A stretch of 36,088 nucleotides of DNA from positions 1 through 36,088 of the forward strand of contig JANQNN010000004.1 in assembly GCA_028279545.1 (NCBI GenBank), read 5' to 3'. Below the pieces are notes generated by a model. That model was not told the DNA's origin. It worked only from the letters and a program-made list of their open reading frames with translations, and ran no database searches. Source of the DNA: Nitrosopumilaceae archaeon (GTDB taxonomy: Archaea > Thermoproteota > Nitrososphaeria > Nitrososphaerales > Nitrosopumilaceae). The position numbers and the translations under genes were made by a program. Shown here piece after piece: positions 20,116 to 36,088 of the stretch (positions are counted from its first letter, which is position 1; the number at the start of each line of letters is the position of its first letter).

Positions 20116-20805
20116 TTATCCCAACCCAACAAAGTTGAATATAATATCACCAAACAACAATTGAACGATAAATCCTCCTAGAATAAAGATCATAAATGGT
20201 AAACCCGGAGTAACCCATGTATCAGGAGTTGTACAATACTCAGCAGAATCTGAATTATGCATAGCAATATTCAATGTCTTTTTTTTACCTACTTGTCTTT
20301 CTAAAGAAAAACTGTATTTGGGGTTTTTTGCCCTATATCCAATGAACATTGCCAGAGCTTTCTTTGATGTTGACTCATCAAATCCCATGAAAATGTTTTT
20401 CTTTTGCAAAATAAGTAGAGAGTTTCTTATAAAATTAATTATCATTGGAGTAATAGAAAGCAGGGCACTGTTTACCAATATCGAAAATGGACTGATTGGT
20501 GATTCAGAGAAAGTAGCCATAGGTGCCAATGCAGATAATACTATTAATCCCAATGCATCAGCTCCTCCAAATAACCCAAATCTCCACAACAACAATACTA
20601 ATGGAGCAACAATTAAGGAAAAACCTACCCCAATTGCAGCCTGAATTAAATCAGGTTCTAAGAACAATAGCGCTACAGAAATTCCCCCAAAAATCATCCA
20701 CCATAAATCAGATATTTCTCGAGTTCGAATATCAATAATGGTAACCGAAATTAACATTACTAAGGCAGCCAAAATTCTGATTTGAAAAATATCTATTTCA
20801 ATCAT
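20116..20805 (-). CDS. Archaeal prepilin peptidase (A24 family, class III signal peptidase)
   Basis: The 229-residue integral membrane protein has the two aspartates of A24 peptidases: Asp25 in IIDIRTREISD and Asp83 in FGGADALG, the GxxD-type motif. It has about five to six helices. Such enzymes (FlaK/PibD type) cleave class III signal peptides just before the hydrophobic stem of archaellins and pilins. Three candidate substrates are encoded further right (28371, 32982 and 33428), so it is likely to serve this pilus locus. It begins with ATG at 20805. A TrmB-type regulator gene lies 29 bases upstream on the same strand. Confidence 0.9.
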   Translation of the reverse strand: MIEIDIFQIRILAALVMLISVTIIDIRTREISDLWWMIFGGISVALLFLEPDLIQAAIGVGFSLIVAPLVLLLWRFGLFGGADALGLIVLSALAPMATFSESPISPFSILVNSALLSITPMIINFIRNSLLILQKKNIFMGFDESTSKKALAMFIGYRAKNPKYSFSLERQVGKKKTLNIAMHNSDSAEYCTTPDTWVTPGLPFMIFILGGFIVQLLFGDIIFNFVGLG

Positions 20806-20834
20806 TGTGAAAATCTCATTTGATAATTTTTCTA

Positions 20835-21347
20835 TTAATTTTCAAATTTTTCAGATTTTTCTCGCAGCTCTTCCAAATTTCTTTTAAAGCTAGATTTCAT
20901 TTTAGTAGAACCGTTATATTTTTTCATTTGTGATTTGAATTTTAACAAATCTGATTTTTTTAAGCCTCTTATTTTTTGGAATGAATTCCATAAATCCGTC
21001 ATGTCGTATTTCAACAGCTTTAACTCCTCAATTTTTTTGAGTTGGTTATCAATAATTGCATCAATTGCTTGTTCAATCACTACTGCAGAAAATCTGGTGG
21101 GTCTTTGAATTGAAGAAATTACTATTCCTTTACTTTCAAGGGTTGACAACAAATGATAAGTTTCAGTTCTAGGAATTCCCTCTTCTTGAGATATTTTAAT
21201 TGCTTTTGAAGGACCATTTTTACTCAAATATAGATAAATTCTTGATTCGTTGTTTGTTAAACCAAAATCACGTAAACGTTCCTGAAGAACTTGTAGAAGT
21301 TCATCCTGATTACTTTTACTATGAGAGATTGGTTGCTCTGTTCCCAT
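20835..21347 (-). CDS. TrmB-family transcriptional regulator
   Basis: This 170-residue protein has a TrmB-type winged helix (about residues 15-95). Its recognisable parts are LRDFGLTNNESRIYLYLSKNGP, KAIKISQEEGIPRTETYHLL and STLESKGIVISSIQRPTRFSA, followed by a helical dimerisation coil (QLKKIEELKLLKYDMTDLW) and a lysine-rich end. There is no sugar-binding C-terminal domain, so it is a short TrmB variant. I chose ATG at 21347 (MGTEQPIS) rather than the longer frame beginning 81 bases upstream, because that extension runs through the divergent promoter. Position next to the prepilin peptidase and divergent from the response regulator suggests control of the pilus genes. Confidence 0.85.
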   Translation of the reverse strand: MGTEQPISHSKSNQDELLQVLQERLRDFGLTNNESRIYLYLSKNGPSKAIKISQEEGIPRTETYHLLSTLESKGIVISSIQRPTRFSAVVIEQAIDAIIDNQLKKIEELKLLKYDMTDLWNSFQKIRGLKKSDLLKFKSQMKKYNGSTKMKSSFKRNLEELREKSEKFEN

Positions 21348-21459
21348 AAATTGTAATATTCTAAATGTAACATAAGCGAGAACATGTCTTTTTAAAATAC
21401 AGACAAAATTTTTGAGCCTAAATGACAACTTTTTATTAAATGCATGTAAAAAAGCAATA
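21348..21459. promoter_or_regulatory. Divergent promoter region, TrmB gene / response regulator
   Basis: The 112-base interval separates the divergent starts of the TrmB-type gene (ATG 21347) and the response regulator (TTG 21460). A TATA-like tttttattaaat (21430-21441) lies about 25 bases before the TTG. On the minus strand a tttagaata-type box lies about 20-25 bases before the TrmB ATG. Both mRNAs may be leaderless. Shared regulation is possible. Confidence 0.45.
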
Positions 21460-22107
21460 TTGATTCGTGCTGTGGTGGTTGATGATGAAAAAGATACTCT
21501 TCAGCTATTTACTGAATTGCTAACAAGTAATGGAATTAAGGTAGTTGGGAAAGGATACAATGGCCAAGATGCAGTTTTTTTGTTTCAAAAGTTAAAACCT
21601 GATGTGTTGTTTTTAGATATTTTAATGCCAATTTATGATGGAGTTTTTGCAATGCAGAAAATACGTGACACAAATCCAGATGCCAAAATTATTGTCATTT
21701 ATGATAAATTAAGTATTGAAAAAGAAATGGAGGTAAATAGGCTGAAACCTTCAGCAATTATTAGAGAACCAATTGATGTTAATGAAATTTTGCGGAAAAC
21801 GCATAAACTTTGCGTGCCTTCGGGAGATTCGCTTGATTTGATGAAAAAAACAATTGTGGTGCTAGCCATGAAAAATACGTTCTTAGAATTGGGATTAGAA
21901 GAATTTGATAAAATTGTTTTGCTGTTGCAAAAAGACCATAATTGTTCCTTGGAAGATTGCTATGAAAACCCTGAAGCCTTAAAACAAGTTTTGAAAGATT
22001 TGTTTGGTGATTCGTATAATGAAATCATGAGCTCATTAAAAGAAAATATTAAAAATATCTCGTCTCATAAATCAACTGAGAATTTCCTAAATGTATTGAG
22101 TAGTTAA
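21460..22107 (+). CDS. Response regulator with atypical receiver and shared C-terminal output domain
   Basis: I chose TTG at 21460 (LIRAVVVDDE) because the receiver fold begins there and a TATA-like box lies about 25 bases upstream, giving 215 residues. Residues 1-120 form a CheY-like receiver with acidic pair D8-D9 and phosphoacceptor D53 (LFLDILMP). The usual Thr/Ser of strand 4 is Tyr81 (IIVIYDK) and the usual Lys of strand 5 is Glu103 (IREPID), so signalling is likely altered. Residues ~135-215 form a helical domain (LELG..., LEDCYENPEALKQVLKDLFG) that matches residues 349-428 of the AAA+ ATPase at 30810 at about 30 of 80 aligned positions. It may belong to the thaumarchaeal NitrOD-type output domains; that is from memory. 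Confidence 0.85.
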   Translation: MIRAVVVDDEKDTLQLFTELLTSNGIKVVGKGYNGQDAVFLFQKLKPDVLFLDILMPIYDGVFAMQKIRDTNPDAKIIVIYDKLSIEKEMEVNRLKPSAIIREPIDVNEILRKTHKLCVPSGDSLDLMKKTIVVLAMKNTFLELGLEEFDKIVLLLQKDHNCSLEDCYENPEALKQVLKDLFGDSYNEIMSSLKENIKNISSHKSTENFLNVLSS

Positions 22108-22127
22108 TCAACAAAAGTAAAAACTAA

Positions 22128-24593
22128 TCATCTATTTTTTATAATTGGAATTTTTTCTTTAATATTCTCAATTCTAGATGTAATCTCTAATCTTTCAAAG
22201 ATTTCATCAAATCTAGTAAAAACACTTTCAATTATTGGGAATCTATCAGATAGGGGTTCAAGAAGTCCTCTTTTTCTTAATAGTATGCTACTTCCAATAA
22301 CTGCCCCAGGAACAAGGATCAGCACTACATTGTCTTCTAAAATATTTTTATTCTCTACTGGAACCGCAGCTTCGTCAACTGGTGGAGTTATTTGGATTTC
22401 TTTTGAAACTTTAATTTGATCAAAATCTAAAGTTGTGCCCTCTACTTTAACCATATCTGCATCCTCTGCAACCAAAGTTAGTTTAATTTTTCCACTACTA
22501 TCAGTAGTTTCAGATATTTCTTGAATTTGTGCTCCTTGAATGTTCCAATTGATTCCTATGTTCTCCAATGGAACTTCTTCCAATTTGGCATCTAGAACTA
22601 AATCAAAGACTTCACCAGCAACAATTGAATTTACAGAAGATATTACCAAGGTGGGAATGGTGTTTACTGTATTTAGGTTAAATTTTGATAAAGGAAAATC
22701 CCCAGCAAGAACAGAAATTTCTGTTTCTTCTACCTGCTTTGGAACAATATCAAACAAAGTATGATAAGTTCCTTTTTTTATAATTACTTTTTGAGGCATT
22801 TCAATTGTATTGTCATTTGCAGCAATTCTAAATTCAAGATCCTTATTAGCAAAAATTGGTGTCTCCTCATTGTCTAGTATTTGTAAGGACAATGTGTTTT
22901 TCATTCCAGATAGAAGATGGTCCGGAACAGCAAGATCTACTTTTGTAGGCTTTGATACTGCAGTGTCAAAGTCAATAGTTGTGGTAAATTCGTTTGCCTC
23001 AAAATCAAGTGGTACTTTTCCTTCCTTAATTGATTGAGATGTTAAAATCAATGTAGATTGTCCTTCGCTAACGGTCTGTACAGGTGTTTTAACAAATTCA
23101 TTAGGGCCCATTACTACATTGGAGGAATCTGGAAAATACCAACTTGCGTCATTTATATCAGTCATATACACCATCATTGGAAAATTTGTTTTTGGCATTA
23201 CTTTGTTGATTAATGGTTCTGAAACTAATTGTAATTCTGCTCTCTCAGGGCCATACACAATGGGAAAAATTGTTTCGGTTTGTTTTCCTACAACTGTAAC
23301 TTCTAAAACCTCGGGTTTGGTTTGTCCCATTTTTCCGAATAATAATTTAGCACCTGATCCAGTTTCCATTCGGTCATCCGATATAGTTAGTGTTTTACTA
23401 TCTGAGGAGGTTATTTGAGATTCCACCGGACTTATGTTTATCAAAGATACACCATTTACATCTGCAGGATACAAAACTCCGATTAATTGTTCAGACCCAG
23501 AGGCCAATAATGGGATCATTTCTAGTTTTGTTACTGGATCATTAATATCTGGAGTAATTACGGTTTGAAATTCAACAGGTTCTGAAACCAAATAATTCTC
23601 AGCTGAGATACTAACTTCATATGTGTCTTGTAAACCTGCAACAACGGATAATTTTGCATATCCTTCTGAAGACCCAGCAGGAATTACCAACGAATTAATT
23701 GTGCTAATCTCTGTGACTTGGTTATCGTTGAATTTAGCTTCGGCACGATCTATTTTAACTGAAACAGGAATCGATTCAGATGTCTTTATTGGTGAACCAT
23801 CCTCCGCTTGTAATTGGGCAATAGCAAAGGTGCTAGAAGTGGCAAAATTACTTATTTTTTCAGGATATACATACAATTGAATTTTGTAATTATCTGTGCC
23901 GCCAGAAACAGAATCACCAGTTGCTCCAATTACAGTTATCTTGCTATTTCCTGAATCAATGTTTGGCGTTTCTGCATATATAGAAACTTCACCTGGTTTA
24001 TTCACTTTAAATTCTCCGATAGCAAAATAATCTCCTTCTAAAATTGTAATTTGATTTTGAAGTAGAGTAATAATTTCTGAGTTGGATGTGCTAAGCGAAA
24101 TTTGCAAATCTTTTTGTGCCAAGGTTGGATTAGAATCGATATCTGCTAATTCTACAGAAAAATATCCTTCAGTCGGCCCATTAATTGTAAAAGTGTCTGG
24201 GGCTGCTTTTAATAACAACTTTTGTTCTGCTTGTTTAATATCATAAATTGTAATTGGAAATTCTTCAGATTCAAATCCAGGTGCTGCAATTGCAATATTT
24301 GCAATTCCTGAATCTAAAGCATCTAATTTTACTGAAGTTACAGCAGTATCTATATTTGAAGACATTTCTAAAACTTTTACAATATTTTGATCTGAGGATG
24401 TAACTATCAAATTATCTATTATGTTTGGAATCGGAACATCTTGTTGAAGTCCATAAATTTGTAAAATTCCTTTGGTCCCTTCAACTAATTTTTCTGGGAG
24501 TTGCTTATATCCAAAACTTTTAGGTTCTTGACCATAAGCTTCAGGTACAATTAGGGTTGTTAATATTAACAATAGGAGACATATGACTTTCAA
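22128..24593 (-). CDS. Large surface protein with Ig-like repeats and C-terminal anchor
   Basis: The 821-residue protein begins with a signal peptide (MKVICLLLLILTTLIVPEAYG) followed by about 700 residues of beta-rich, Ig/cadherin-like sequence. Repeated motifs of the type SVELADIDSNP, VPVSVKIDRAEAKFND, LSLQILDNEETPIF and VISSVNSIVAGEVFDLVLDA are visible. It ends in a membrane helix (NVVLILVPGAVIGSSILL) and a basic/amphipathic cytoplasmic tail of about 50 residues. It lies 65 bases downstream of the pilus platform gene on the same strand, so it probably belongs to that operon. It may be a pilus-base or adhesion protein on the cell surface. There are no catalytic motifs. Confidence 0.8.
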   Translation of the reverse strand: MKVICLLLLILTTLIVPEAYGQEPKSFGYKQLPEKLVEGTKGILQIYGLQQDVPIPNIIDNLIVTSSDQNIVKVLEMSSNIDTAVTSVKLDALDSGIANIAIAAPGFESEEFPITIYDIKQAEQKLLLKAAPDTFTINGPTEGYFSVELADIDSNPTLAQKDLQISLSTSNSEIITLLQNQITILEGDYFAIGEFKVNKPGEVSIYAETPNIDSGNSKITVIGATGDSVSGGTDNYKIQLYVYPEKISNFATSSTFAIAQLQAEDGSPIKTSESIPVSVKIDRAEAKFNDNQVTEISTINSLVIPAGSSEGYAKLSVVAGLQDTYEVSISAENYLVSEPVEFQTVITPDINDPVTKLEMIPLLASGSEQLIGVLYPADVNGVSLINISPVESQITSSDSKTLTISDDRMETGSGAKLLFGKMGQTKPEVLEVTVVGKQTETIFPIVYGPERAELQLVSEPLINKVMPKTNFPMMVYMTDINDASWYFPDSSNVVMGPNEFVKTPVQTVSEGQSTLILTSQSIKEGKVPLDFEANEFTTTIDFDTAVSKPTKVDLAVPDHLLSGMKNTLSLQILDNEETPIFANKDLEFRIAANDNTIEMPQKVIIKKGTYHTLFDIVPKQVEETEISVLAGDFPLSKFNLNTVNTIPTLVISSVNSIVAGEVFDLVLDAKLEEVPLENIGINWNIQGAQIQEISETTDSSGKIKLTLVAEDADMVKVEGTTLDFDQIKVSKEIQITPPVDEAAVPVENKNILEDNVVLILVPGAVIGSSILLRKRGLLEPLSDRFPIIESVFTRFDEIFERLEITSRIENIKEKIPIIKNR

Positions 24594-24658
24594 TACACAA
24601 CTTATTCCCTAAAAAATTGATATAAGAAACTGTATGACTTTTTATGAGACATCTATTC

Positions 24659-26098
24659 CTAAAACAAGGAATTTACATCAATTATTGAAAATTGAACCAG
24701 GGTAATTCCTACTAGAGTCAAAATTACTAATATTATACCATAAAGAAATCCTCCAGAAAATGAACCTTTAATCACTCTTCCTAGAAACAATCCTGCAGTC
24801 CAAGATTGAATTAGGACAATGAGTGGAAACAAACCAAGTGTAGATTGAATTATTTCCCCTTCAATACCTGATAAATCTTGGCTTTGCTGCTCAATATCAC
24901 CAAAGGAATCAATTACTAACAGAGTCGTAAATCCTGTTGTTCCCATCAAAATAAAACCCACATACAAGTAAGGAAGTAATAATTCACGTTTTTCTTTTTG
25001 AATTTCATGCAATCTTTCACTTGTTTCTGTTAGTGAATCCAAGGTTTGTGGATTTCCTCCACCAGCTGAAATTAATTCAAATAAAATATTGTAACTAATC
25101 AAGACATTGAAAAGTTTAATTTCTTTTTTCAAATCTTGGAAAATGGTTTTAAAATCAACACCCCATTGAATTTTGTTTGCGATTCCATTTGCAATAGAAT
25201 TAAAGATTCCATATTCTTTTCTTTTACAAGCATGAATTACACTACTTTCAGGACTCATTCCTGTTTTTCTGGCCTCTGATATCGTACGCAATATTTTTGG
25301 TGTAGAATCTTCAGCTGCAATAGTCATAGCATACAATTTTTTAAATTTAATGGAAGGAAGAATCGAGGCTGCAATAAATGCACCCCCCAACAAATAAGGA
25401 CCAAATAGAGGGTCTGGAATTATATCAAGTCCGATTACTATTCCACTTATAGCAAAAGCAGGAACTGAAAGCATGATTATTTTTTTCAGATCTAACTCTG
25501 GGCTTTTTGAAACTCTGTTTTTACTGGCAAAAAATAAGAATGCCGCAGAGACCAAGGGGGTTGCTATTAAAAATATCATTTCACCGGTTATTCCGGTTTG
25601 TGCTTCATTAAATGGGTCAGAGATAACAGCTGCTCCAATGATATAAACTGCTAGCAAAACAACCTGAATTGTCATATATGCTTCAACAAGTGCACCTAGC
25701 TTGGTAACTGATTGTTTTTGAGTATCAGCATACCTATCATATACAGTTTTCATTTTGCTTTTGAGATAACTCACAATATCTCCTCCACTTTCTATGGTGG
25801 AAACATATCCATCAAAAAATTCGCCTAATGCTTTTGATTTTGAGTGAGTTCTAACATTTCGCATTACCTCTAGCGGGTCAACACCTAACAAATCAATTCG
25901 TTTAAGCATTTTTTGGGTCTCTTGTCTTATTGTAGGTAAAAGTTCAATTGATTTTACTCTCTGTAACATAAAGTAAGGCCCTATTCCTGCACTGCTAAGT
26001 AATGTTACAATAGTGATAAAATAAGGTAATTCGTGATTGATCTTTTTATCTTGTTTTTGTTCAGCTCCTTTTTCCTTAAGTGAACTAATGGATATCAT
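24659..26098 (-). CDS. Type IV pilus/Tad platform protein (TadC/ArlJ-type, T2SSF family)
   Basis: The 479-residue polytopic membrane protein has two type II secretion F-like halves, each with a cytoplasmic helical domain flanked by hydrophobic helices. Examples are PYFITIVTLLSSAGIGPYFM, GGDIVSYLKSKMKTVYDRYA, RTISEARKTGMSPESSVIHA, and ISAGGGNPQTLDSLTETSER. It forms the inner-membrane platform on which the ATPase acts to assemble pilins. The ATG overlaps the ATPase stop by one base (TAATG), so the two are translated together. Gene pair and length fit archaeal TadC/ArlJ-like proteins; no other archaellum genes (arlB cluster, arlF/G/H) are in the window. Confidence 0.93.
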   Translation of the reverse strand: MISISSLKEKGAEQKQDKKINHELPYFITIVTLLSSAGIGPYFMLQRVKSIELLPTIRQETQKMLKRIDLLGVDPLEVMRNVRTHSKSKALGEFFDGYVSTIESGGDIVSYLKSKMKTVYDRYADTQKQSVTKLGALVEAYMTIQVVLLAVYIIGAAVISDPFNEAQTGITGEMIFLIATPLVSAAFLFFASKNRVSKSPELDLKKIIMLSVPAFAISGIVIGLDIIPDPLFGPYLLGGAFIAASILPSIKFKKLYAMTIAAEDSTPKILRTISEARKTGMSPESSVIHACKRKEYGIFNSIANGIANKIQWGVDFKTIFQDLKKEIKLFNVLISYNILFELISAGGGNPQTLDSLTETSERLHEIQKEKRELLLPYLYVGFILMGTTGFTTLLVIDSFGDIEQQSQDLSGIEGEIIQSTLGLFPLIVLIQSWTAGLFLGRVIKGSFSGGFLYGIILVILTLVGITLVQFSIIDVNSLF

Positions 26099-27648
26099 TA
26101 TTCCCCATCTCCATAATTAATTTTTTTTAAAACAGAATTTGGATCGTTGTAATATTTTCTAATCATCTCGGTTACAGCTTTATGTTCTCGTATATTGTTA
26201 GATGACATCCATTTCAAAATTTTTGTTCTTTTGTTGTGTTCTTTTAGGACATCTTCAAAATCATCTCCAGTTTGTTCTGAAATTTTTTTAAGATTTTTAC
26301 TTGTTGCAATTGAATGCTCAAAATAATCTGACTTTGGATTCCAACTTGAAACAGTTTGTGGATTAGAACTACTTGAAATCTCTTCAATGGAGATTGCACG
26401 TCTCATACTTTGCCCAGTTGCTTTATCTTTTACTCTTTTAATCACCAAAGCACAGTTCATCAAAGAAAGATATGCAGGAGGAATACTCATGGGCTTTTGT
26501 TGTAATCTTTTACTTGCGGATTCCAAACTATCTGCGTGCATTGTACAAAGACCACCATGTCCAGTTGCCATTGCCTGAAACATGACATAAGCTTCTGAAC
26601 CTCTAATTTCACCTACAATAATGTAATCAGGTCTATGTCTTACACCAGATTTAATTAGTTCATACAAACCAATCTCACCTTCATCATTTGAACCATACCC
26701 AGATCTTGAAATAAGAGAAAACCAGTTATCGTGTGGTAGGTTTATTTCAGCGACATCTTCTACTGAGAAAAGTTTGTCATTTTCACTTACCAAACCCGCA
26801 ATTGCATTTAGGACTGTTGTTTTTCCACTACCTGTCGAACCAATTATCATAATGGACATTTTAGCTTCAATCATCATCCAAAGATATGCTGCTGTTTCAA
26901 GATCAATGGTTCCAAAGCCTATTAGGTCAATAATGGTGAAAGGATCTTCTTTGAATTTTCTTATGGTAAAACTTGTTCCCTTTGGTGTAATCTCTTTTTG
27001 ATATAGTACTGAAATTCTATGATTTCCAGTAATGGCAAGATCAGAAATAGGATGAGCCGTACTTACGTGTTTTCCAGCCTTGAAAACAATTCTTGTAATA
27101 AATGAATTTAGTTTTTGGTGAGATTCAAAGGTCACATTCGAGGCTACACTATCATAATTTCTATGCCAAACATACAAAGGCAAACCAGGCCCACTGCAGC
27201 TAATATCTTCAATATTTGGGTCGTGCATTAATGCCTCTATCTCCCCATATCCTATGATGTCTCGTTTTAAGAAATATTTTACTTTCTCCATACTTGCAAC
27301 CGGATTTGAAACAAAAAATCCTTCGTTATTTTTTATCACCTCATTTAAGTGGGAATCAAAATTTTTCTCTTCACTAGTGTTTAATGAATCTAAACTTTGT
27401 TCTACAAAGTTGTACAAATCTTTGTAAATGCGTTCTTCTTCAAAATTTAGTTTAATCTCATCTACAAAATACTGAAAATTTGAATTTTTCTCATCCCATA
27501 AGATTTTTGCATAGCTAAACGGTGCATCTAATGGATACTCTTTTACTACTTTGAATTGATTTGAAACTTTGTTGATGATACTTTCATCTAAAAGATCATG
27601 ACTTAGAAGTTCATCCAGTTCCGTTTGGTTTTCATTTATGGGTTTCAT
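26098..27648 (-). CDS. Type IV pilus/Tad assembly ATPase (TadA/VirB11/ArlI-type)
   Basis: The 516-residue secretion ATPase has an N-terminal domain of about 200 residues. The catalytic domain follows, with Walker A GSTGSGKTTVLNAIAG, an Asp-box-like region VEDVAEINLPHDNW, Walker B IIVGEIRGSEAYVMF and His-box ATGHGGLCTMHADS. It powers pilin polymerisation together with the platform protein whose gene overlaps its stop codon. A canonical Shine-Dalgarno (GGAGG on the minus strand, 27656-27660) lies 7 bases before the ATG. Poly-T tracts separate it from the upstream pilin gene, which should make motor expression lower than pilin expression. Confidence 0.95.
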   Translation of the reverse strand: MKPINENQTELDELLSHDLLDESIINKVSNQFKVVKEYPLDAPFSYAKILWDEKNSNFQYFVDEIKLNFEEERIYKDLYNFVEQSLDSLNTSEEKNFDSHLNEVIKNNEGFFVSNPVASMEKVKYFLKRDIIGYGEIEALMHDPNIEDISCSGPGLPLYVWHRNYDSVASNVTFESHQKLNSFITRIVFKAGKHVSTAHPISDLAITGNHRISVLYQKEITPKGTSFTIRKFKEDPFTIIDLIGFGTIDLETAAYLWMMIEAKMSIMIIGSTGSGKTTVLNAIAGLVSENDKLFSVEDVAEINLPHDNWFSLISRSGYGSNDEGEIGLYELIKSGVRHRPDYIIVGEIRGSEAYVMFQAMATGHGGLCTMHADSLESASKRLQQKPMSIPPAYLSLMNCALVIKRVKDKATGQSMRRAISIEEISSSSNPQTVSSWNPKSDYFEHSIATSKNLKKISEQTGDDFEDVLKEHNKRTKILKWMSSNNIREHKAVTEMIRKYYNDPNSVLKKINYGDGE

Positions 27649-27660
27649 AGTTTATCCTCC

Positions 27661-27705
27661 AATAAGAAAAATAAAGAAAAAGAGAGATACAAAAAAAGGC
27701 TCTCC
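27661..27705 (-). terminator. Poly-T tracts between pilin and pilus ATPase genes
   Basis: Directly after the pilin stop, the minus strand carries a T7 tract (27691-27697) and then further T-rich runs (27666-27681). Archaeal polymerase terminates at such tracts without a hairpin. Transcripts could be trimmed here in part, with read-through to the ATPase. Confidence 0.55.
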
Positions 27706-28371
27706 CTATGGGTTTTGTATGATGGTACTTTGGGGAGCGCCTGCTTTGTCTGCAAATATCTTTAACGTTGATGTTGCACCTGAATCAAGCGTTGTGATTT
27801 TGCCAACTGGTACTTGGAAGTAAATGATAGCTCTGTCTCCAGGATTAAGTCCTACTGGACCTGAAACCTGTTGTAGACATAGTGTCTCTAGGGTATCATC
27901 TGGATTTGAAGCACCTGCGTCAAAATCAATCTCCAGAGTTGTGGCATCTGGAGTTGTACAAGCAGTTGTTACTTCTGCTGAGTCTTTCATTATTGTTCCT
28001 GCACCACTGGTACCTGTGTGTATGTAGTTAGACTGCCAGTTTGCGATTGATACTCTAGTTTGGTCTGTATCAACATACCAATTAGAGAAAGGAATGGTTT
28101 GACCCTTGATGGTAATTGTATCTACAGATAAGTTCTGATCACCATCATTTCTAACACCTGCTGCTCCCCACGCATCACCTGCGGCATCAGTAGCGTTTAC
28201 CCAGACTTCAATACCTGATACTTCAATACTTTCTTCTTGTGCTACTGTCTGGAACAAACTTGTTCCGTACAATACAACACCAGATCCGAGAACTACTGAA
28301 GCAACCAAGATGATTACTGTCGTAAGAACCGTACTGATTCCTCTTTTCTTTGTGAAAACGTGGTTTTTCAT
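27706..28371 (-). CDS. Major pilin / archaellin-like protein with class III signal peptide
   Basis: The 221-residue protein starts MKNHVFTKKRG and is then predicted to be cut after Gly11, leaving the hydrophobic stem ISTVLTTVIILVASVVLGSG, typical of archaeal type IV pilins and archaellins. The remaining beta-rich head (WVNATDAAGDAWGAAGVRND) contains two cysteines about 50 residues apart (TACTTP and ETLCLQ) that could form a disulfide. Third positions are visibly richer in C and G than in neighbouring genes, as expected for a strongly expressed structural protein. It heads the operon pilin - ATPase - platform - surface protein. It has a long structured leader instead of the usual leaderless start. 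Confidence 0.92.
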   Translation of the reverse strand: MKNHVFTKKRGISTVLTTVIILVASVVLGSGVVLYGTSLFQTVAQEESIEVSGIEVWVNATDAAGDAWGAAGVRNDGDQNLSVDTITIKGQTIPFSNWYVDTDQTRVSIANWQSNYIHTGTSGAGTIMKDSAEVTTACTTPDATTLEIDFDAGASNPDDTLETLCLQQVSGPVGLNPGDRAIIYFQVPVGKITTLDSGATSTLKIFADKAGAPQSTIIQNP

Positions 28372-28543
28372 TATTAAAAATAAATTACACTGTCAGGTTA
28401 TAGGATCTGATGTGTAATATTCTTGAACAGACACTTTTTCACAGAAATTACTCGAAACCTCAAATTATATAATATTTATATAAAATATTAATTTATTTGT
28501 AAAATTTATAGATTATATAAGATATTTTATAAAATATTGAAAA
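28372..28543. promoter_or_regulatory. AT-rich promoter and leader region of the pilin gene
   Basis: This 172-base interval separates the VWA gene end (28544) from the pilin start (28371). Bases 28459-28549 are nearly pure A/T and include several TATA-like stretches on the minus strand. Transcription of pilin probably starts around 28440-28450, giving a leader of about 70-80 bases. Near-identical inverted copies of gtttcgagta occur at 28449-28458 and 28550-28559. No RNA gene or small open frame is convincing. Confidence 0.5.
28384..28418 (-). promoter_or_regulatory. Hairpin in the 5' leader of the pilin mRNA
   Basis: On the minus strand attacac and gtgtaat (outer arms, 7 pairs) flank tcag/ctga (4 pairs) with a loop of about 10 bases. 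It ends 12 bases before the pilin ATG. It can fold in RNA as a start-proximal stem-loop or serve in DNA as an operator. Position in an unusually long leader argues for a post-transcriptional role, such as mRNA stability or translation control. Confidence 0.55.
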
Positions 28544-30103
28544 TTATATGTTTCGAGTAGTTTTCATGGAATATACCTTAATGAACTGATTTACTAGCTC
28601 TCTCATAGTAAAGCCCCAACAGGAGTCCCTAAAATATTTGGAAATCCCAGAAGATAAACCAATTCCAATAACTTCTACACCCATATTTTCAACCTCCCTA
28701 ATGGCAGCTTTTAGTTTAAGATCTTCATTCCAAATTCCAGTTGGAAAGTCATCTGTGAACACAAAAAGATTTCGCACATCTCCAGGATTTTTTGCCATTA
28801 CTCTTCCTGCCAACAAAATTGCATCAGAGGTATAAGACAAACCACCACTATACAATCCTCCAATTCTAGCTTTACAATCCTGATTGTATTTTCCTTTATG
28901 ATCTTTTAATATGGAAAATTTTTGGTCATAGCTAAACAAACCCCAAGAACCTGCAGGTCCAGTTAATTCATCTGAAGCCTCAGCTAGACACAACATAAAA
29001 TCTTTAACTTGTTTAAATCTTAATCTCATACTTGCACTATTATCTATAAGAATTCCCCACACTTCCTCAATTCTTTGTTCTTCTTGTTTAGTAAAAACTT
29101 CTGCATAATCTTGAGTGTTACTTGCAATGGCTTGAATTGCCAATTCCATATCTATTTCGCCAAACATATTATTTTGAGGATCTTCATTATTGTTTAGTAC
29201 ATTTCTAATTTGTTCCCGAATTTTTTTTAGAATTTTTTTATTTTCTTCCTTTAGTTGGAAAAATTGAAAAATGTCTTCCCTTGGAAAAATAATTTCATCA
29301 AAATTTAATCCAAATAATTCCTTTCTCATTTGATGTTTTAAATGATCAATTCTATCTTTTTCTTCAAGATAAAGATAATTTAATTTTTTAATTGTGGTTG
29401 CAAATTTTCCTGAAGGAGAAATATCTAATGTGTTAGGTTTTAACATTAATGAATGTGAACCAGTATTTTGCTCCAGATAAAATGGAGAGTCTTCTGAAAC
29501 TAAAAGTCTCTTTCGATATAGTTCGGAGGCCCATTCAATTTGTTGGTTTTGTGTATTTTTCTCAAAAGGTCTTAAATTTGCTCTTTCCATTTCTTGTTTT
29601 ATTGAATCAAGCCTTTTCGAGCCTAGATTAAGTGAAAATTGAGATTTTTTTGTTTTTATTTTGTAATGTTGAAAATAGTCATTTTTAATTTTTGAAAGGT
29701 TAATCCATACATCGTGATTATTTGCCAAAAGGTAGCGTTCAACGGCATCGTCTTCAATAAATGTAATTATTTTCCAAGCCAAATCTGGAGTCTTGCCTTT
29801 TGCCCAGTTATTATACATGGAATAATTTGATACAGCCACATGAGCTGCCAAATGGTAAACTGTTGCTAAAAAGAAACTCCAAACAGAAATTAAATCTCGG
29901 GGAGTATTTTTGAATAAATACCCCGAATAGGAAAATCCATGTTTTGTCCTCCTAGGAATTGGAATTTTTACTTCAATTGTAGGTTCAAATTTTATTGAAG
30001 GTGAAAAAAATTTTTCAGATAATAGTAATCTAACATCTTTAAAATCACGTTGAGCAGTTTCATAAAATATTTTATAAACAATGTCAAGAAAGGTCTGTTG
30101 CAA
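28544..30103 (-). CDS. von Willebrand factor A (VWA) domain protein, MoxR partner
   Basis: The 519-residue soluble protein has a helical N-terminal region of about 340 residues with no family I recognise. A C-terminal VWA domain follows with a MIDAS-type metal motif D354-N-S-A-S358 (GILIDNSASMRLRF) and FVFTDDFP further on. Such cytosolic VWA proteins (NorD/CbbO/CobT-like architecture) pair with MoxR-type AAA+ ATPases and hold client proteins during remodelling or metal insertion. The AAA+ ATPase gene is encoded divergently at 30810. It starts with TTG, 9 bases after the stop of the SecB-like gene, so those two are co-transcribed. Its placement between pilin genes suggests a client in the pilus machinery. 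Confidence 0.85.
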   Translation of the reverse strand: MQQTFLDIVYKIFYETAQRDFKDVRLLLSEKFFSPSIKFEPTIEVKIPIPRRTKHGFSYSGYLFKNTPRDLISVWSFFLATVYHLAAHVAVSNYSMYNNWAKGKTPDLAWKIITFIEDDAVERYLLANNHDVWINLSKIKNDYFQHYKIKTKKSQFSLNLGSKRLDSIKQEMERANLRPFEKNTQNQQIEWASELYRKRLLVSEDSPFYLEQNTGSHSLMLKPNTLDISPSGKFATTIKKLNYLYLEEKDRIDHLKHQMRKELFGLNFDEIIFPREDIFQFFQLKEENKKILKKIREQIRNVLNNNEDPQNNMFGEIDMELAIQAIASNTQDYAEVFTKQEEQRIEEVWGILIDNSASMRLRFKQVKDFMLCLAEASDELTGPAGSWGLFSYDQKFSILKDHKGKYNQDCKARIGGLYSGGLSYTSDAILLAGRVMAKNPGDVRNLFVFTDDFPTGIWNEDLKLKAAIREVENMGVEVIGIGLSSGISKYFRDSCWGFTMRELVNQFIKVYSMKTTRNI

Positions 30104-30112
30104 TTTTAATCA

Positions 30113-30718
30113 TCAAGCTTCAGCTGTCTTAGGTTGCTCCGTTGGTTTTTCAGGGGAAAATTCACTTTCAGTTTGAACCTGTTCATTTTGTAAATTGTTA
30201 TTTTCAGTTACCTCATCAACGTTATTGGTGGGTTTATTTTCTAATGATTCTCCATCCATTTCATTATTTTCCGTTTTTTCTACAGTTTCTTGTAATGGTT
30301 CATTTTCCATTTGTGTCTCATTACTTTCCAATTCTGTATCTTGATTTTCATGAATTCCAACATTATTTTGAGAAAGAGTATGAGCAGGTGACGGAATATT
30401 CATATTTTTTGAAATAATATACATTAGGGGAAATAGTTCCTGATAAATTAAAGAAACAACTTCAGGGGTTGTTTCAATTTCTTGTTTTAAAAATTCCTCG
30501 ATTTCTGATTTATCACCAGTTAAAGTCGCATTTCCGCTGAGATTTATAACAGAATTTTTAGGATTTGATGTTAAATCAAGGGAAAACTTTAGAACTGTTT
30601 TATCTTCATCACTTACTTCTTCTACCAAATCAACATTAATGTCATATTTTTTAAAATCAACACCTTTTTCTGATGTTTTATTAAACATTAGATTAGATAT
30701 CTCTACCTCATGATTCAT
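30113..30718 (-). CDS. Acidic protein with SecB-like N-terminal domain
   Basis: The 201-residue protein has an N-terminal domain of about 115 residues with alternating beta strands (YDINVDLVEEVSDEDKTVLK, then SVINLSGNATLTGD) and a helix reading PEVVSLIYQELFPLMYIISK followed by NMNIPSPAHTL. This resembles the SecB export-chaperone fold, whose helix has the pattern LFPYAR..I and a following P-x-L stretch. The other ~85 residues are a low-complexity Glu/Asn/Thr-rich tail. The similarity is by eye and weak; a structure-based search would decide. The gene is divergent from the AAA+ ATPase (91 bases) and directly upstream of the VWA gene. Confidence 0.6.
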   Translation of the reverse strand: MNHEVEISNLMFNKTSEKGVDFKKYDINVDLVEEVSDEDKTVLKFSLDLTSNPKNSVINLSGNATLTGDKSEIEEFLKQEIETTPEVVSLIYQELFPLMYIISKNMNIPSPAHTLSQNNVGIHENQDTELESNETQMENEPLQETVEKTENNEMDGESLENKPTNNVDEVTENNNLQNEQVQTESEFSPEKPTEQPKTAEA

Positions 30719-30809
30719 GACTAATATCCATTTAATTCATAGTTAACAACCTGTCTGTAGCATGACAATACATCTCTCTGGTTTAACCTATTTAGAATAA
30801 CTAATTGTA
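30719..30809. promoter_or_regulatory. Divergent promoter between AAA+ ATPase and SecB-like/VWA genes
   Basis: The 91-base interval has a TATA-like ctatttaga (about 30787-30795) before the ATPase ATG at 30810, which suggests a leaderless start. An AT-rich box on the minus strand lies before the ATG at 30718. The two halves of the MoxR-VWA system are thus driven from one compact region. Confidence 0.45.
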
Positions 30810-32096
30810 ATGATTTCTCCTACTTCTGAAGGTAATGTTAAAAATCTTGAAACCTCCAGAGTGAATAGCGATAAGTTTAGTCTAAAAATTAATTTTTCAA
30901 AAAATAAAAAAGTTGATTCAAAAAAACTACACACCTATGACATTAAAAAATATGTAAATCCAGACAATTTTGATTTTCCTCCAGATATGCAAGAATTAAT
31001 TCCTAAAAATACTCCACCCTATTATGATAGAGGGGAAAATTATGTTGAAAGAATTGTAAGAGCATTAGGATATTTTAAACAATGTGCTTGTATCGGTCCG
31101 AGTGGAACAGGTAAAACCCATATTGTTTATCTTGTAGCTGAATTATGTCAACTCCCATTATGGGAAATTAACTGTGGTTTACAAACATCGACATACGACC
31201 TTTTTGGTCGTTATATTGGACTAGGAAAAGAGAATTGGATAGATGGTATTATTACTTCTTGGTGTAGACATGGCGGAATTCTTTATCTGGATGAGGCAAA
31301 CATGATGAAACAAGATGTCGCTACAAAATTAAATCCAATTTTGGATACTAGGGGACACATGGTATTAAACGAAAAAGACAATGAGCTTATCACTAGACAT
31401 AAAGACGCTTACATGCTAATTAGCATGAACCCTTTTTCATCTGAATTTACAGGTACCAAACCACTAAACGCAGCTTTTAGAAGAAGAATGAGTGTTTGGT
31501 TAAACTTTGATTACATGAGCGTTGGAACTCACATCGATGATAAAGAAGTTAATCTTCTTTTAGAAAGAACCGGAGTTTCGAGAGATACTGCAACAAGTAT
31601 TGTTCATGTTGCCGCCAAACTCCGTCAAGAGTATAAAAATGGTGATTTGCCTTATGGACCCTCTGTTGGGGATTTGGCAAACTGGGCACGAATAATTGCA
31701 GATGGTGCATCACCAATAGATGCTGGAAATGAAACACTGGTAGCAATGACTAGTGACGATTATGAAATTCAAGAAGAAGTAAGAAAAATTATAAAATCAG
31801 TTGATTGGGATGAAACTCAAACAAGTGATGATCCAAAGGTATTCATCATCGTTGCCGTTGAAAAAGCTTTACTAGAGTTAGGAAAACCAGATTTGAATAA
31901 AGTAAAAGAAAGATTGATGAAAGATTATAAACGAACACTAGCTGATTGTTATGAAGAACCAGAATTCTTGAATAGAATTTTGAAAGACATTTACGGAAAA
32001 GCTCATGTAACCATAATAGACTCTATAAAGCGAAATCTAGGCAATGCTTCTAGTTCTGAACCAGTTCAAAAATTCCTAGCAGAAATTACGAGGTAA
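30810..32096 (+). CDS. MoxR-type AAA+ ATPase with C-terminal shared output domain
   Basis: The 428-residue protein is a MoxR-family AAA+ ATPase (same general branch as CbbQ, NorQ and GvpN). Walker A is GPSGTGKT (residues 96-103), Walker B GILYLDEAN, sensor 1 LISMNP, and the arginine-rich AFRRRM carries the likely Arg finger. These ATPases act as chaperones with VWA proteins; the VWA gene is divergent and adjacent. After the lid domain, residues ~349-428 (LELGKPDLNKVKERLMKDYK, LADCYEEPEFLNRILKDIYG) match the C-terminal domain of the response regulator at 21460. MoxR proteins do not normally carry this domain. The membrane protein gene follows after 4 bases, so they share a transcript. Confidence 0.92.
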   Translation: MISPTSEGNVKNLETSRVNSDKFSLKINFSKNKKVDSKKLHTYDIKKYVNPDNFDFPPDMQELIPKNTPPYYDRGENYVERIVRALGYFKQCACIGPSGTGKTHIVYLVAELCQLPLWEINCGLQTSTYDLFGRYIGLGKENWIDGIITSWCRHGGILYLDEANMMKQDVATKLNPILDTRGHMVLNEKDNELITRHKDAYMLISMNPFSSEFTGTKPLNAAFRRRMSVWLNFDYMSVGTHIDDKEVNLLLERTGVSRDTATSIVHVAAKLRQEYKNGDLPYGPSVGDLANWARIIADGASPIDAGNETLVAMTSDDYEIQEEVRKIIKSVDWDETQTSDDPKVFIIVAVEKALLELGKPDLNKVKERLMKDYKRTLADCYEEPEFLNRILKDIYGKAHVTIIDSIKRNLGNASSSEPVQKFLAEITR

Positions 32097-32100
32097 ACCC

Positions 32101-32889
32101 TTGCAATTTTTTTATCAAAGATTCAATGTGCAGGATTACCTTCTCTTTACTTTATTGGGAATTACTTCAATAGTTTTAATCTCAAATTTCATTGGACAAG
32201 GTGCAGCGGAAAATGCCACAAATGGAATTTCAATTGTTCTTTCAGCTTCTGTAATGTTTTTTTCCTTTTTAATGACTTCCAAGTATGGGACAAAAGGAAA
32301 CCATGGAAAAGCATGGATATTGTTTATGTTATTTTCAGCTTATTGGTTTTGTGCAGAAACCGTAGAAATTATTTATCCACTAGTATTGGGAGTAGAAGCT
32401 TGGGAATATGCTAATGACTTTTTTTATATTACTGGATATCCATTATTTTTTTCATTCCTTGTTTTTTATTTAAGACCTTTTGCAAGTCAAATTTCAAAAA
32501 AAATGGTTATAGGAATCAGTGGGTTATCTTTAGTTCTTTTAATTCCCTCTTTAATGATGATTGTTGATTCTGAAGCGTTTTCCACGAATGAAAATGTTTT
32601 ACTATTGATATCATATCCTATCTTAGATTCGCTTGTACTAATCCCAGCTTTAATTGGTGTTGTTTTATTTTTTAAGGGGGAAGTAAATTTCATGATTTCT
32701 CTTTTATGTTTAGGTATAATTACCCAAATTATTGGAGATAATAGCGTCCTTTACTTATCTCTGCAAAATATCTTCTATCCAGGACACCTTGTGGAAGTCT
32801 TATTTTTGTGGACATATGCCCTTTTTGCCTTTGGAATCTCTAATCAATTAGGCATATTCAAGGAAAATGTACGTAAAATTAGCATTTGA
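32101..32889 (+). CDS. Seven-helix integral membrane protein, possible sensor
   Basis: The 262-residue protein has about seven to eight transmembrane helices and almost no soluble loops, ending in a short basic tail (KENVRKISI). The layout resembles the N-terminal membrane-sensor domain of some archaeal histidine kinases, but no kinase, HAMP or other output domain follows. It starts with TTG 4 bases after the ATPase stop, so it is co-transcribed and could be the membrane partner of the MoxR-VWA complex. A T7 tract (32893-32899) right after the stop is a likely terminator. The family is not recognised. Confidence 0.75.
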   Translation: MQFFYQRFNVQDYLLFTLLGITSIVLISNFIGQGAAENATNGISIVLSASVMFFSFLMTSKYGTKGNHGKAWILFMLFSAYWFCAETVEIIYPLVLGVEAWEYANDFFYITGYPLFFSFLVFYLRPFASQISKKMVIGISGLSLVLLIPSLMMIVDSEAFSTNENVLLLISYPILDSLVLIPALIGVVLFFKGEVNFMISLLCLGIITQIIGDNSVLYLSLQNIFYPGHLVEVLFLWTYALFAFGISNQLGIFKENVRKISI

Positions 32890-32892
32890 CAG

Positions 32893-32899
32893 TTTTTTT
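32893..32899 (+). terminator. Poly-T tract after the membrane protein gene
   Basis: A T7 run lies 4 bases after the stop of the seven-helix protein and is followed by more T-rich sequence. Archaeal transcription commonly ends at such runs. A 6-base inverted repeat ggtgta/tacacc (32923-32928 and 32941-32946) follows before the next promoter. Confidence 0.45.
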
Positions 32900-32981
32900 G
32901 TATATTTTGAGGCTAAATTCATGGTGTAAGTTTTTGAAAATACACCTCGATGGATAATATCAAATTTTTTGTTTTTAGGGT

Positions 32982-33431
32982 ATGGTTAAGCATAGGAAGC
33001 ACAGAGCGTTAGCTACTGTTGTTTCAACGGGAATTTTACTTTCAGCCGTAGCAATTCTGGGTAGCGTGTTAGTTAGCTGGTCAAATAGTACTTTTACTGC
33101 AGAACAATATGAAATCAATAAAGTTTATTCAGACGGCGTCAATAAATTAAATGAATATTTAGTAATCGAAAATGTTTGGTTTGGGAATAATCCCAGTAAA
33201 TTTGTAAATGTAACTGCAAGTAATGTTGGGAGTGTTGGATTAAATGTAACAAGAATAACATTAGATAATTCTATTGATAGAACTGATTTACTAATCACTG
33301 ATGGAGGTATTGTAACCAATGAAGAATTCTCTACTGAAATAACTTACAATTGGACTAGCACTGATCCAATAAAAATTACGCTAACTACTGAAAAAGGATC
33401 TATCTATCAAACTTTTGTTCTGGGGCCATGA
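32982..33431 (+). CDS. Small pilin-like protein with class III signal peptide
   Basis: The 149-residue protein begins MVKHRKHRA and is predicted to be cut after Ala9, followed by LATVVSTGILLSAVAILGSV, the hydrophobic stem of an archaeal pilin/archaellin. The rest is a small Asn/Thr-rich beta domain (NVTASNVGSVGLNVTRITLD) with several N-glycosylation sequons. It has a TATA-like ataatatc about 25 bases before the ATG, so the start is probably leaderless. Its stop overlaps the ATG of the next gene (ATGA). It is likely a minor pilin or a partner of the large adhesin it is coupled to. Confidence 0.85.
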   Translation: MVKHRKHRALATVVSTGILLSAVAILGSVLVSWSNSTFTAEQYEINKVYSDGVNKLNEYLVIENVWFGNNPSKFVNVTASNVGSVGLNVTRITLDNSIDRTDLLITDGGIVTNEEFSTEITYNWTSTDPIKITLTTEKGSIYQTFVLGP

Positions 33432-36088
33432 CACAACGAAGAGCTTTATCAACTGTTGTGGGAGGAGTGTTTTTTCTAATTGTTATTGTTGCAGCAGCTA
33501 GCTACCTTACCTCTACAATGAATTTGTTTGATGATTTTTCTGAAACTGTTTTTGCAGTGGAACAAGAAAGAGAAAACAGAAAAAAAGAATCATTTGATAT
33601 TTCAAGATTGACAATCGAAAATAATAAAATAAATCTAGATGTCTTTAATTCTGGAGATATTCCAGTATTTTTTAACAGGTTATGGATAGAAAATGTTACA
33701 GGTGTTGATCAAGTTTACAAATTCAATTTAAATCAAACAGTTACACCAGGAGATATTGCTGAAGATATCTTACAATCTTTACCTTTTACAGCTTTGGGGA
33801 CAGAAAGTTACAAAATGAAACTAGTTACAGATAGAGGGACTACAAAAGAGTTTTCAGTAAATTCATCAACCGACCCATTGAATTTACAATTATTTGCTTT
33901 GCCAGAAGAAATTCCTACGGAATTTCCTTCTACGATTCTGTTATCGGTGACAAACAATTCTACACAAAATACAATCTATACCAACATTATGCCAATTCTT
34001 AATGTAGTTTCCATAGGCGGTCAAGCAGAATTAATAGGTTCTTTTCCTAATCCCCATCCTGTATTAGAAAAGGGTAATACGGCTATTTTTGAGTGGGCCT
34101 ATAGAATTACAGGAGATGAAGGAGATAAAGTACGATTTGAAGCAAATATTCTAAATGGTGTGCCTGGCAATGTAGTTTCCAAAGAAGTTACTGTAAAAGA
34201 TGTTAAATTTGCAGAGCAGAGTACTAGCTCATTAGAGAGTAGTTTCTTGACATCAAGTAACATTGCTCCAGGAGTTTTAATTTTTCATCAAGAAACTTTT
34301 GATGCACTAGGAGAACGACAAATGTGGCAATCTCTTCCTGAAAATAGTTTAGGAGAAGTTATCGATTTTGAAACAACAAATCCAATATTTTATACAAATA
34401 GCGATGGAAATGTAACAGTTAACATTCCTGATGGAAATTGGAATACGGTTATGAGGTATATTAGCAGTCCAATGCCCGAAACCTTGAGACACTCAGGTAG
34501 CACAGCAGAAGATATGGCATATCATTTTGAAACTGATCTAAATTCTCCATTAGATACAACTGAAAATACCGTTATGACTTTGGGTGGAGGTACCATAGAT
34601 ATTGAATTAGATGATTCCAATAACAATAGTGGGTCTTTATGTAGTTCTAGTTCTTGTAACATTGATCTCACAGTCTCTCCAGGAATTGACCGAATGGTTA
34701 TTGTTACGGTTGAAGACGAAGGTACCCTAAATCCAGTTACGTCGATAACCATAACAAATGGAACCAATCCTGCAACTTTAGTTGGAACAGAGCAAGTAGG
34801 TTCTGGTGCATTTGAACAAAATGTAGAGATGTGGCGTTTTATGGAATCAGACATTTCTTCTGGTGATCACACTATTACAGTAAACTTTGGGTCCCCCGTA
34901 TCTGGTGCAGGAATTACGGCTATGTCGTTCATTGGAGTTGAACAACAACCTGAAGAGGCAGAAAATTCAAACACTGTAACTAGTAGTTCCTCTATTTCAA
35001 CAGGAATTACTACCTTGACAAGCGATGCCATGATTGTGTCTGCTGTAGGTAACGGTCAAGGCGGAGGAAGTTACACGTCTCACGGTTCAGGTCAAATTGA
35101 AAGACATGATTTTGCTACATCTAGTGCAGGTCATGGTGTCACTACTGAAATAAAATCAACTCCTGGTTTTGATAGTCAATCCCATACTTATTCATCAACT
35201 GCAAATCGTCAAGCACAATACGTAGCAGCATTCGCGCCCTCCCCAAATTCTGGAACCCATCGTCCCATTTGGAACGCTACTGGCCATGATGGTGCAGGGG
35301 CTTATGTTTTTTCAGGACAGCAATACGCATTGATAGACGTAACAGACGACAACGATCTTGATGATAGCCCTGCAACCACAGCTGGTTGGTTTAATGCAGA
35401 CAGTTCTGGACCCTCAGATTATCAGACAATATACTTTGGACAGAATGGAAGTGGAAGTGACGATTATGAAATATATCTAAATCCTAGTGGCCATTTAGAA
35501 TTCAGGGTTGATGCAGCGTCTGCATCAAGAATTGCAACATGCACCAGTGCTGTAGATTATCGAGATGATACATGGCATCATTTTGTTGCAGTTTATCCAA
35601 GTGATAATGATTGTAAGTTGTACGTGGATGGAGTTTTCCAAGATTCTGATTTTAATTCAGGAGAATCTGGAATTAGACTTGCAGGAGATATTATCGTTGG
35701 AGCGTATTCAATTTCCCCCGTAACTGATGGGTTTCATGGAATGATTGATGATATCATCCACTGGGATAATTATGATCTAAATGAAGGTGCTGAAGATGAA
35801 GTACTAGATTTATTTAATACCAATTATGGTGTTGATGCACATCGCTTAGATTTTGATATTAGAGTTGTTGATGAGTTTGGAAATGATCTGGGACTTTCCA
35901 ACAAAACAATTACACAAACTTACAATTACTCTATTCCATATGCAAGTGATTTTGCTGAATATCCTTCTCCTATTGAAGATGTTTGGGGACAATTTAATTT
36001 CACGGTGACAAATTCAAATCCAGTGGTAATTGGTCCAGGTGAAAGATTAATGCTCAATATGACCAATATCCCAAGAAGTATAGGAAAT
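33428..36088 (+). CDS. Giant pilin-type adhesin with LamG/ConA-like domain, 5' part
   Basis: The frame is open from ATG 33428 to the window end (887 codons, no stop), so the gene is truncated at its 3' end. It begins MTQRRA followed by LSTVVGGVFFLIVIVAAASY, a class III signal peptide with pilin stem. After the stem come repeated beta domains rich in Asn, Ser and Thr. About residues 620-800 form a LamG/concanavalin-like fold (AGAYVFSGQQYALIDV, DTWHHFVAVYPSDND, CKLYVDGVFQDSD, GMIDDIIHWDNYDL). The ATG overlaps the stop of the small pilin (ATGA), coupling the two. A pilin stem on so large a protein suggests an adhesin at the pilus tip, binding glycans or surfaces; the ligand is unknown. Confidence 0.88.
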   Translation, partial: MTQRRALSTVVGGVFFLIVIVAAASYLTSTMNLFDDFSETVFAVEQERENRKKESFDISRLTIENNKINLDVFNSGDIPVFFNRLWIENVTGVDQVYKFNLNQTVTPGDIAEDILQSLPFTALGTESYKMKLVTDRGTTKEFSVNSSTDPLNLQLFALPEEIPTEFPSTILLSVTNNSTQNTIYTNIMPILNVVSIGGQAELIGSFPNPHPVLEKGNTAIFEWAYRITGDEGDKVRFEANILNGVPGNVVSKEVTVKDVKFAEQSTSSLESSFLTSSNIAPGVLIFHQETFDALGERQMWQSLPENSLGEVIDFETTNPIFYTNSDGNVTVNIPDGNWNTVMRYISSPMPETLRHSGSTAEDMAYHFETDLNSPLDTTENTVMTLGGGTIDIELDDSNNNSGSLCSSSSCNIDLTVSPGIDRMVIVTVEDEGTLNPVTSITITNGTNPATLVGTEQVGSGAFEQNVEMWRFMESDISSGDHTITVNFGSPVSGAGITAMSFIGVEQQPEEAENSNTVTSSSSISTGITTLTSDAMIVSAVGNGQGGGSYTSHGSGQIERHDFATSSAGHGVTTEIKSTPGFDSQSHTYSSTANRQAQYVAAFAPSPNSGTHRPIWNATGHDGAGAYVFSGQQYALIDVTDDNDLDDSPATTAGWFNADSSGPSDYQTIYFGQNGSGSDDYEIYLNPSGHLEFRVDAASASRIATCTSAVDYRDDTWHHFVAVYPSDNDCKLYVDGVFQDSDFNSGESGIRLAGDIIVGAYSISPVTDGFHGMIDDIIHWDNYDLNEGAEDEVLDLFNTNYGVDAHRLDFDIRVVDEFGNDLGLSNKTITQTYNYSIPYASDFAEYPSPIEDVWGQFNFTVTNSNPVVIGPGERLMLNMTNIPRSIGN

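Follow-up and report, generated by a model that had tools for sequence, protein, structure and literature searches.

What is a MoxR-type AAA+ ATPase with a VWA partner doing among the pilus genes of an ammonia-oxidizing archaeon? The question is raised by a 36,088-nucleotide stretch of a Nitrosopumilaceae genome (assembly GCA_028279545.1, contig JANQNN010000004.1, positions 1 to 36,088; hereafter the window). The window lies on contig C50 of a 1.92-Mb genome that is 99% complete; among named relatives, "Nitrosopumilus sp." and Nitrosopumilaceae metagenome-assembled genomes are the closest. From position 20116 to the contig end it holds one archaeal type IV pilus locus, identified by Pfam and NCBIfam scans and by protein N termini, and this locus includes genes for a MoxR ATPase, a VWA protein, an acidic protein, and a seven-transmembrane (7-TM) protein. 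An original prediction, made from the sequence alone, proposed that these four proteins keep very large class III pilus substrates competent for export or switch the pilus motor; each component that it named was recovered as an open reading frame in the expected place. Our reading, to which we give a probability of about one half, is that the proteins form a dedicated chaperone-remodeler of one archaeal type IV pilus, under membrane-sensor control in the window's genus.

MoxR, its VWA partner, and a SecB-fold protein

The AAA+ module of the MoxR protein (30810..31811, + strand) belongs to the CbbQ/NorQ branch. Residues 1–334 match AAA_5 (72.5 bits against a cut-off of 22; 4e-20) and CbbQ_C (52.6 bits against a cut-off of 20.6; 5e-14), in agreement with the original MoxR assignment. 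When the family profile was compared with the PDB, midasin (5e-55), CbbQ (7e-27), NorQ (1e-22), and CobS (2e-11) were recovered, and none of 79 homologues departs from the Walker A, Walker B, sensor, and arginine residues. A GvpN identity was rejected because the protein scores 38.9 bits against an NCBIfam equivalog cut-off of 266.8 bits.

The VWA partner (519 amino acids; 28544..30103, − strand) is NorD/midasin-like. Its VWA domain matches are above cut-off, and the metal ion-dependent adhesion site (MIDAS), predicted to be intact, consists of D354-x-S356-x-S358, S/T423, and D451, kept in 70/70 homologues (D354 at 29042–29044 and D451 at 28751–28753, − strand). Profile comparison with the PDB found NorD (9.5e-9) and CobT (3e-5), and the first nine Foldseek matches to the AlphaFold model (predicted local distance difference test [pLDDT], 84.6) are NorD and midasin VWA structures. 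These sequence and structure matches span the C-terminal VWA half of the protein; the N-terminal half has no match to NorD. A separate set of conserved residues, H84-x3-H88 and E117-D118 (residues 84–118; present in 62, 62, 61, and 70 of the 70 homologues, respectively), is modeled on two helices that follow a small sheet, an arrangement resembling a metal-binding, degenerate zincin-like site.

Because of these domain, profile, and structure matches, the MoxR-VWA pair can be classed, from sequence and models, with the NorQD, CbbQO, and midasin machines. In these the AAA+ ring receives a finger of the VWA protein, and the client is twisted by the complex (PMC13036017). By analogy, the window's pair may work likewise.

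The acidic protein (30113..30718, − strand) had been called SecB-like, and this description stands for the fold but not for the sequence: no similarity to SecB was found in Pfam or the PDB, either with 41 members of the family or with their profile. The AlphaFold model, built on 41 homologues, has four strands followed by two helices (pLDDT 83.5). Its first 23 Foldseek matches in the PDB are SecB, the SecB-like chaperone Rv1957, and two uncharacterized streptococcal proteins, all with a probability of 1.00, after which the scores fall; the template modeling (TM) score to E. coli SecB (1qyn) is 0.61. As sequence gives no SecB identity, the assignment rests on fold, and according to the model, the protein is a SecB-fold protein with an acidic tail. 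Its near-invariant residues are E33, P53, G62, G68, P85, Y92, and P111, of which E33 (30620–30622, − strand) is the sole acidic one. The MIDAS of midasin binds an acidic residue of its client, and by this analogy E33 is a candidate ligand for the MIDAS of the VWA partner. Archaea are not known to have SecA, so SecA binding cannot apply to this protein. A second, diverged SecB-like paralogue lies near the usual one beside MoxR in three deep thaumarchaeal loci (L107:3650-4129, L120:372-833, and L133:8164-8583).

Occurrence with the pilus genes

MoxR orthologues were gathered by profile search, and the neighborhoods of the resulting 80 named loci were annotated; a locus was considered well flanked if at least 7 kb was available on both sides. 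A pilus secretion ATPase and a TadC platform gene are present at all 15 well-flanked Nitrosopumilales MoxR loci, and a SecB-like gene is present at 37 of 38 Nitrosopumilales loci. In a control set of 20 loci of paralogous MoxR, pilus genes and the SecB-like gene were both absent throughout (0/20), though a VWA gene was often near (13/20). The difference in synteny between pilus-type and control MoxR gives a Fisher value of 3e-10, although Fisher values here are optimistic because the genomes are related to one another. In a survey of 37 genomes of the family, some of them incomplete, MoxR, a close pilus ATPase, and the SecB-like gene were jointly present in the same 14 and jointly absent in the same 23, so that all 37 agree, and both states occur inside four genera. 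It is well supported, then, that the MoxR-VWA-SecB-like block belongs to the pilus in Nitrosopumilales, as had been predicted.

In 24 of the 31 Nitrosopumilales loci outside the window's genus, the SecB-like gene overlaps a same-strand pilin gene or lies no more than 83 bp upstream of one, which favors the part of the original prediction that concerned export-competent class III substrates; the system itself is not confined to pili. In genome G045 the MoxR search was empty, yet the SecB-like gene still lies among pilins. In this complete genome (L183:4705-15495), the SecB-like gene is near pilins, a secretion ATPase, and a 2007-amino-acid pilin-like protein.

The archaeal type IV pilus set in the window comprises a secretion ATPase (26098..27648, − strand; T2SSE, 6.8e-37), a TadC/FlaJ-type platform protein (24659..26098, − strand; T2SSF, 2.4e-16), a PibD-type (A24) prepilin peptidase (20116..20805, − strand; Arc_PepC_II and Peptidase_A24 above the Pfam cut-off), and pilins whose signals are of the class III type (KKRG/ISTV.., HR/ALATV.., and RR/ALSTV..). 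Pilin 1 (27706..28371, − strand) and pilin 2 (32982..33431, + strand) were recognized by their N termini and by matches below the NCBIfam cut-off to UpsA (1.1e-9) and ArlF (4e-4), respectively. The last gene (33428..36088, + strand), cut by the contig end, encodes a pilin-like adhesin with a class III-type N terminus and a LamG domain (Laminin_G_3, 2.3e-17). It had been described as a giant adhesin, which is an overstatement: it has at least 887 amino acids in the window and about 815–820 in complete copies from the genus. A secreted immunoglobulin (Ig)-like protein (22128..24593, − strand), with a weak Big_1 match and hydrophobic segments that include a C-terminal membrane anchor, is also pilus associated and recurs in 29 related loci, and a TrmB-type winged-helix regulator is encoded at 20835..21428 (− strand; Pfam TrmB, 5.8e-15). 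Elsewhere in the window, a QQTD-repeat protein (2–652) and a substrate-binding protein (6957–8045) with an adjoining ABC transporter (to 9662) have a short module, IKxNAGWWxxGxIDD, in common.

A NitrOD5-like domain on MoxR and its 7-TM partner

The original prediction overlooked that MoxR is fused to a signaling domain and paired with a 7-TM sensor, features that point to signal control. MoxR residues 335–428 (31812..32096, + strand) are homologous (37% identity, E 6e-15) to the C-terminal output domain of a response regulator encoded about 9 kb away (21412..22107, + strand; Response_reg, 6.8e-16; output domain at about 21826–22104). The true start of the regulator is probably about 17 codons into this frame. 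NitrOD5 (PF11537) is an archaeal death-domain-like domain that occurs as a REC output domain and as a stand-alone domain (PMC5847659). Against the Pfam cut-off of 27 bits, the regulator scores 18.1 (0.003) and the MoxR C terminus of genome G007 scores 20.5; because these scores are below the cut-off and the MoxR domain is homologous to a REC output domain, we use the term NitrOD5-like. The Pfam model was too insensitive for genome-wide use (8 weak matches), and the window's own domain was used as the search query instead.

In the window's genus, each of the eight genomes with MoxR has the fusion, and none was found among the MoxR proteins recovered outside it. The 7-TM gene (32101..32889, + strand), whose product has about seven hydrophobic stretches in keeping with the predicted seven-helix membrane protein, starts 4 bp after MoxR, a position that is likewise particular to this genus. 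Elsewhere in the family, the NitrOD5-like and 7-TM parts are separate adjoining genes: among 25 strong free-standing 7-TM homologues that were inspected, 21 adjoin a NitrOD5-like gene, which in 20 cases lies immediately upstream in the same orientation and in one case is divergent; the remaining four all sit at a single conserved location. A conserved 7-TM gene without a NitrOD5-like neighbor is found next to HIT-type and thioredoxin-like genes in several genomes (L165, L166, L187, and L195). A TrmB-type regulator is the first gene of six cassettes (L164, L172, L173, L190, L196, and L198), and that of L164 has up to 70% identity to TrmB regulators that border the pilus loci of other genera.

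Its fusion elsewhere to HisKA-HATPase histidine kinases, beside CheY-like regulators, identifies the 7-TM domain as a sensor module. In L180, L181, L191, and L192, which share one conserved location, it forms the N terminus of proteins of about 590 amino acids next to a CheY-like regulator; the two that were checked, L180 and L181, proved to be histidine kinases. On contig C37 of the window's own genome (L005), a second 7-TM gene is divergent from a NitrOD5-like/winged-helix protein, a DNA-binding version of the cassette.

In a domain tree, the MoxR-fused copies form one clade (96/88) among the cassette domains, which fits a single capture event. The alternative that the MoxR domain is a recent copy of that in the regulator was rejected because the tree puts the two in separate cassette-domain clades, with weak deep support. 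Genome G014, of another genus, has a TrmB/NitrOD5-like/7-TM cassette and a NitrOD5-HTH/7-TM cassette (L199:8835-12723) no more than about 10 kb from its pilus locus, and the fusion could have arisen from such an arrangement. Such proximity is not a rule in other genera, as G014 is the only case within about 10 kb. With MoxR fused to half of a membrane-sensor cassette, the arrangement suggests that an outside signal controls the pilus chaperone in the window's genus.

Proposed mechanism, alternatives, and known systems

In the chaperone-remodeler that we propose, the MoxR ring and the VWA protein would operate together as NorQ-NorD or midasin do. Exported pilin or adhesin precursors would be held by the SecB-fold protein, or adapted by it to the VWA MIDAS, possibly via Glu33, and ATP cycles would then free or remodel the client, allowing assembly of the pilus and especially of its LamG-bearing subunit. 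The window's genus would have captured a widespread two-gene signaling cassette, with the death-like domain fused to the MoxR C terminus and the 7-TM gene kept directly downstream, so that a signal at the 7-TM protein could tune the ATPase. The REC-NitrOD5 regulator of the same locus may provide another input, dependent on phosphorylation, by contact between the two like domains. The parts and their motifs, the SecB fold, the co-occurrence, the fusion, and the cassette are seen in sequences or models, whereas we infer the clients, the Glu33-MIDAS contact and other interfaces, and the direction of signal flow through the death-like domains.

Several observations weigh against this proposal. Separation of MoxR-VWA from pilus genes in relatives, which the original prediction had singled out as evidence to the contrary, was not seen at the well-flanked loci of Nitrosopumilales and was seen about half of the time in Bathyarchaeia and deep Thaumarchaeota, where motor genes are near only 7 of 15 well-flanked loci. 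The SecB-like gene was recognized in only 21 of 42 loci of these lineages. From these counts, the MoxR-VWA pair can work without a pilus link or the SecB-like gene and therefore has, or once had, other functions. The co-occurrence could also come from a single linked block being gained and lost as a unit, with no contact between the proteins. On the signaling side, the NitrOD5-like domain scores below the Pfam cut-off, its biochemical role is putative, and in other genera the same machine operates with no sensor fused to it.

The complex could instead act on the pilus motor (secretion ATPase or TadC) rather than on pilins, switching assembly or disassembly, with the SecB-fold protein only an adaptor. 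This would fit the single-strand run of the VWA gene with pilin 1, the ATPase, and TadC, the joint loss of the block with this pilus ATPase subclade, and the designation of the MoxR-VWA pair as a potential regulator in a 2016 census (PMC4858521). We consider it unlikely, as in most genera the SecB-like gene is grouped with pilin 2 and the LamG pilin, and in G045 it stays among pilins although the MoxR search there was empty. Less probable still is that the block serves another enzyme, for instance by inserting metal or by helping to assemble a respiratory or ammonia-oxidation complex, with the pilus simply as its neighbor. Most known MoxR-VWA pairs do serve enzymes (NorQD, CbbQO, CobST, and RavA-ViaA), and the pair in Bathyarchaeia is often away from pilus genes; in the family, however, its presence follows the pilus and not the shared ammonia-oxidizer metabolism, both being missing from 23 of 37 genomes. 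For this we see little likelihood.

The sensor part of the proposal has a rival of its own, in which no signal is involved: the NitrOD5-like domain, together with the 7-TM protein, would act as a membrane tether and position the MoxR ring at the base of the pilus. The 7-TM gene directly 3' of MoxR would suit a tether, as would the fact that MoxR in all other genera lacks the domain yet still accompanies the pilus. Both parts are otherwise found in signaling contexts, the 7-TM family capping histidine kinases and the domain type serving as response-regulator output, and we regard a pure tether as rather improbable. A broader extension of the chaperone-remodeler reading, offered tentatively and at less than even odds, is that the NitrOD5-like/7-TM pair is a general archaeal receptor-adaptor system, running from 7-TM sensor through death-like domain to effectors, that was hard-wired by fusion onto the SecB-fold/MoxR/VWA pilus chaperone in the window's genus. 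If so, the fusion reveals both the logic of the cassette and one of its targets. A conflict or defense system was considered and rejected: domain scans of the locus found no VMAP, STAND, iSTAND, FtsH, or effector parts, the synteny is stable, and the third partner has a SecB fold.

The hosts are ammonia-oxidizing archaea, which are widespread and abundant. The presence of MoxR-VWA at thaumarchaeal pili was published in 2016 but has had no mechanism, and a pilin-tied SecB-fold partner gives the pair a concrete, testable job, to chaperone pilins or the adhesin. Through the fusion and the free cassettes, an orphan archaeal "output domain" gains a likely receptor upstream of it and one likely machine downstream.

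Among known systems, NorQ-NorD and CbbQ-CbbO are similar in the CbbQ_C domain and in combining an AAA+ protein with a MIDAS-bearing VWA protein, and they include the best solved-structure relatives; the window's system adds a SecB-fold third partner, the pilus context, and a death-like domain on the ATPase. Midasin (MDN1/Rea1) is the closest AAA+ sequence relative in the PDB and resembles the VWA protein in fold, whereas the window's proteins are small and separate rather than one giant chain and have no ribosome link. The acidic protein has the fold and element order of SecB and of the SecB-like toxin-antitoxin chaperone Rv1957, from which it differs in being archaeal, in its acidic tail, in the lack of sequence similarity, and in its tie to the MoxR-VWA pair and pilins. 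Bacterial MoxR-vWA ternary conflict systems (PMC7159879) likewise combine MoxR-VWA with a third component, some with death-like adaptor domains; the window lacks their VMAP, iSTAND, and variable effector and has stable pilus synteny instead. The homologous NitrOD5 domain was described as stand-alone or following REC (PMC5847659), whereas in the window it is joined to an AAA+ ATPase, with a 7-TM gene as its partner. Neither that pairing nor the MoxR fusion was found in the text of PMC5847659 or in literature searches, although 2017 mBio work on KaiC hubs and death-like domains could mention the pairing. Makarova et al. (2016; PMC4858521) reported a vWA (arCOG02900) and GvpN-like MoxR (arCOG00441) pair at thaumarchaeal type IV pilus loci of subclade 4A, the same kind of gene pair at the same kind of locus and most likely the same system; the text of that paper does not mention the SecB-like partner, the NitrOD5 fusion, or the 7-TM cassette. 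The link between MoxR-VWA and the pilus was thus already known, and what is new here is the SecB-fold partner, the genus-only MoxR fusion, and the 7-TM cassette.

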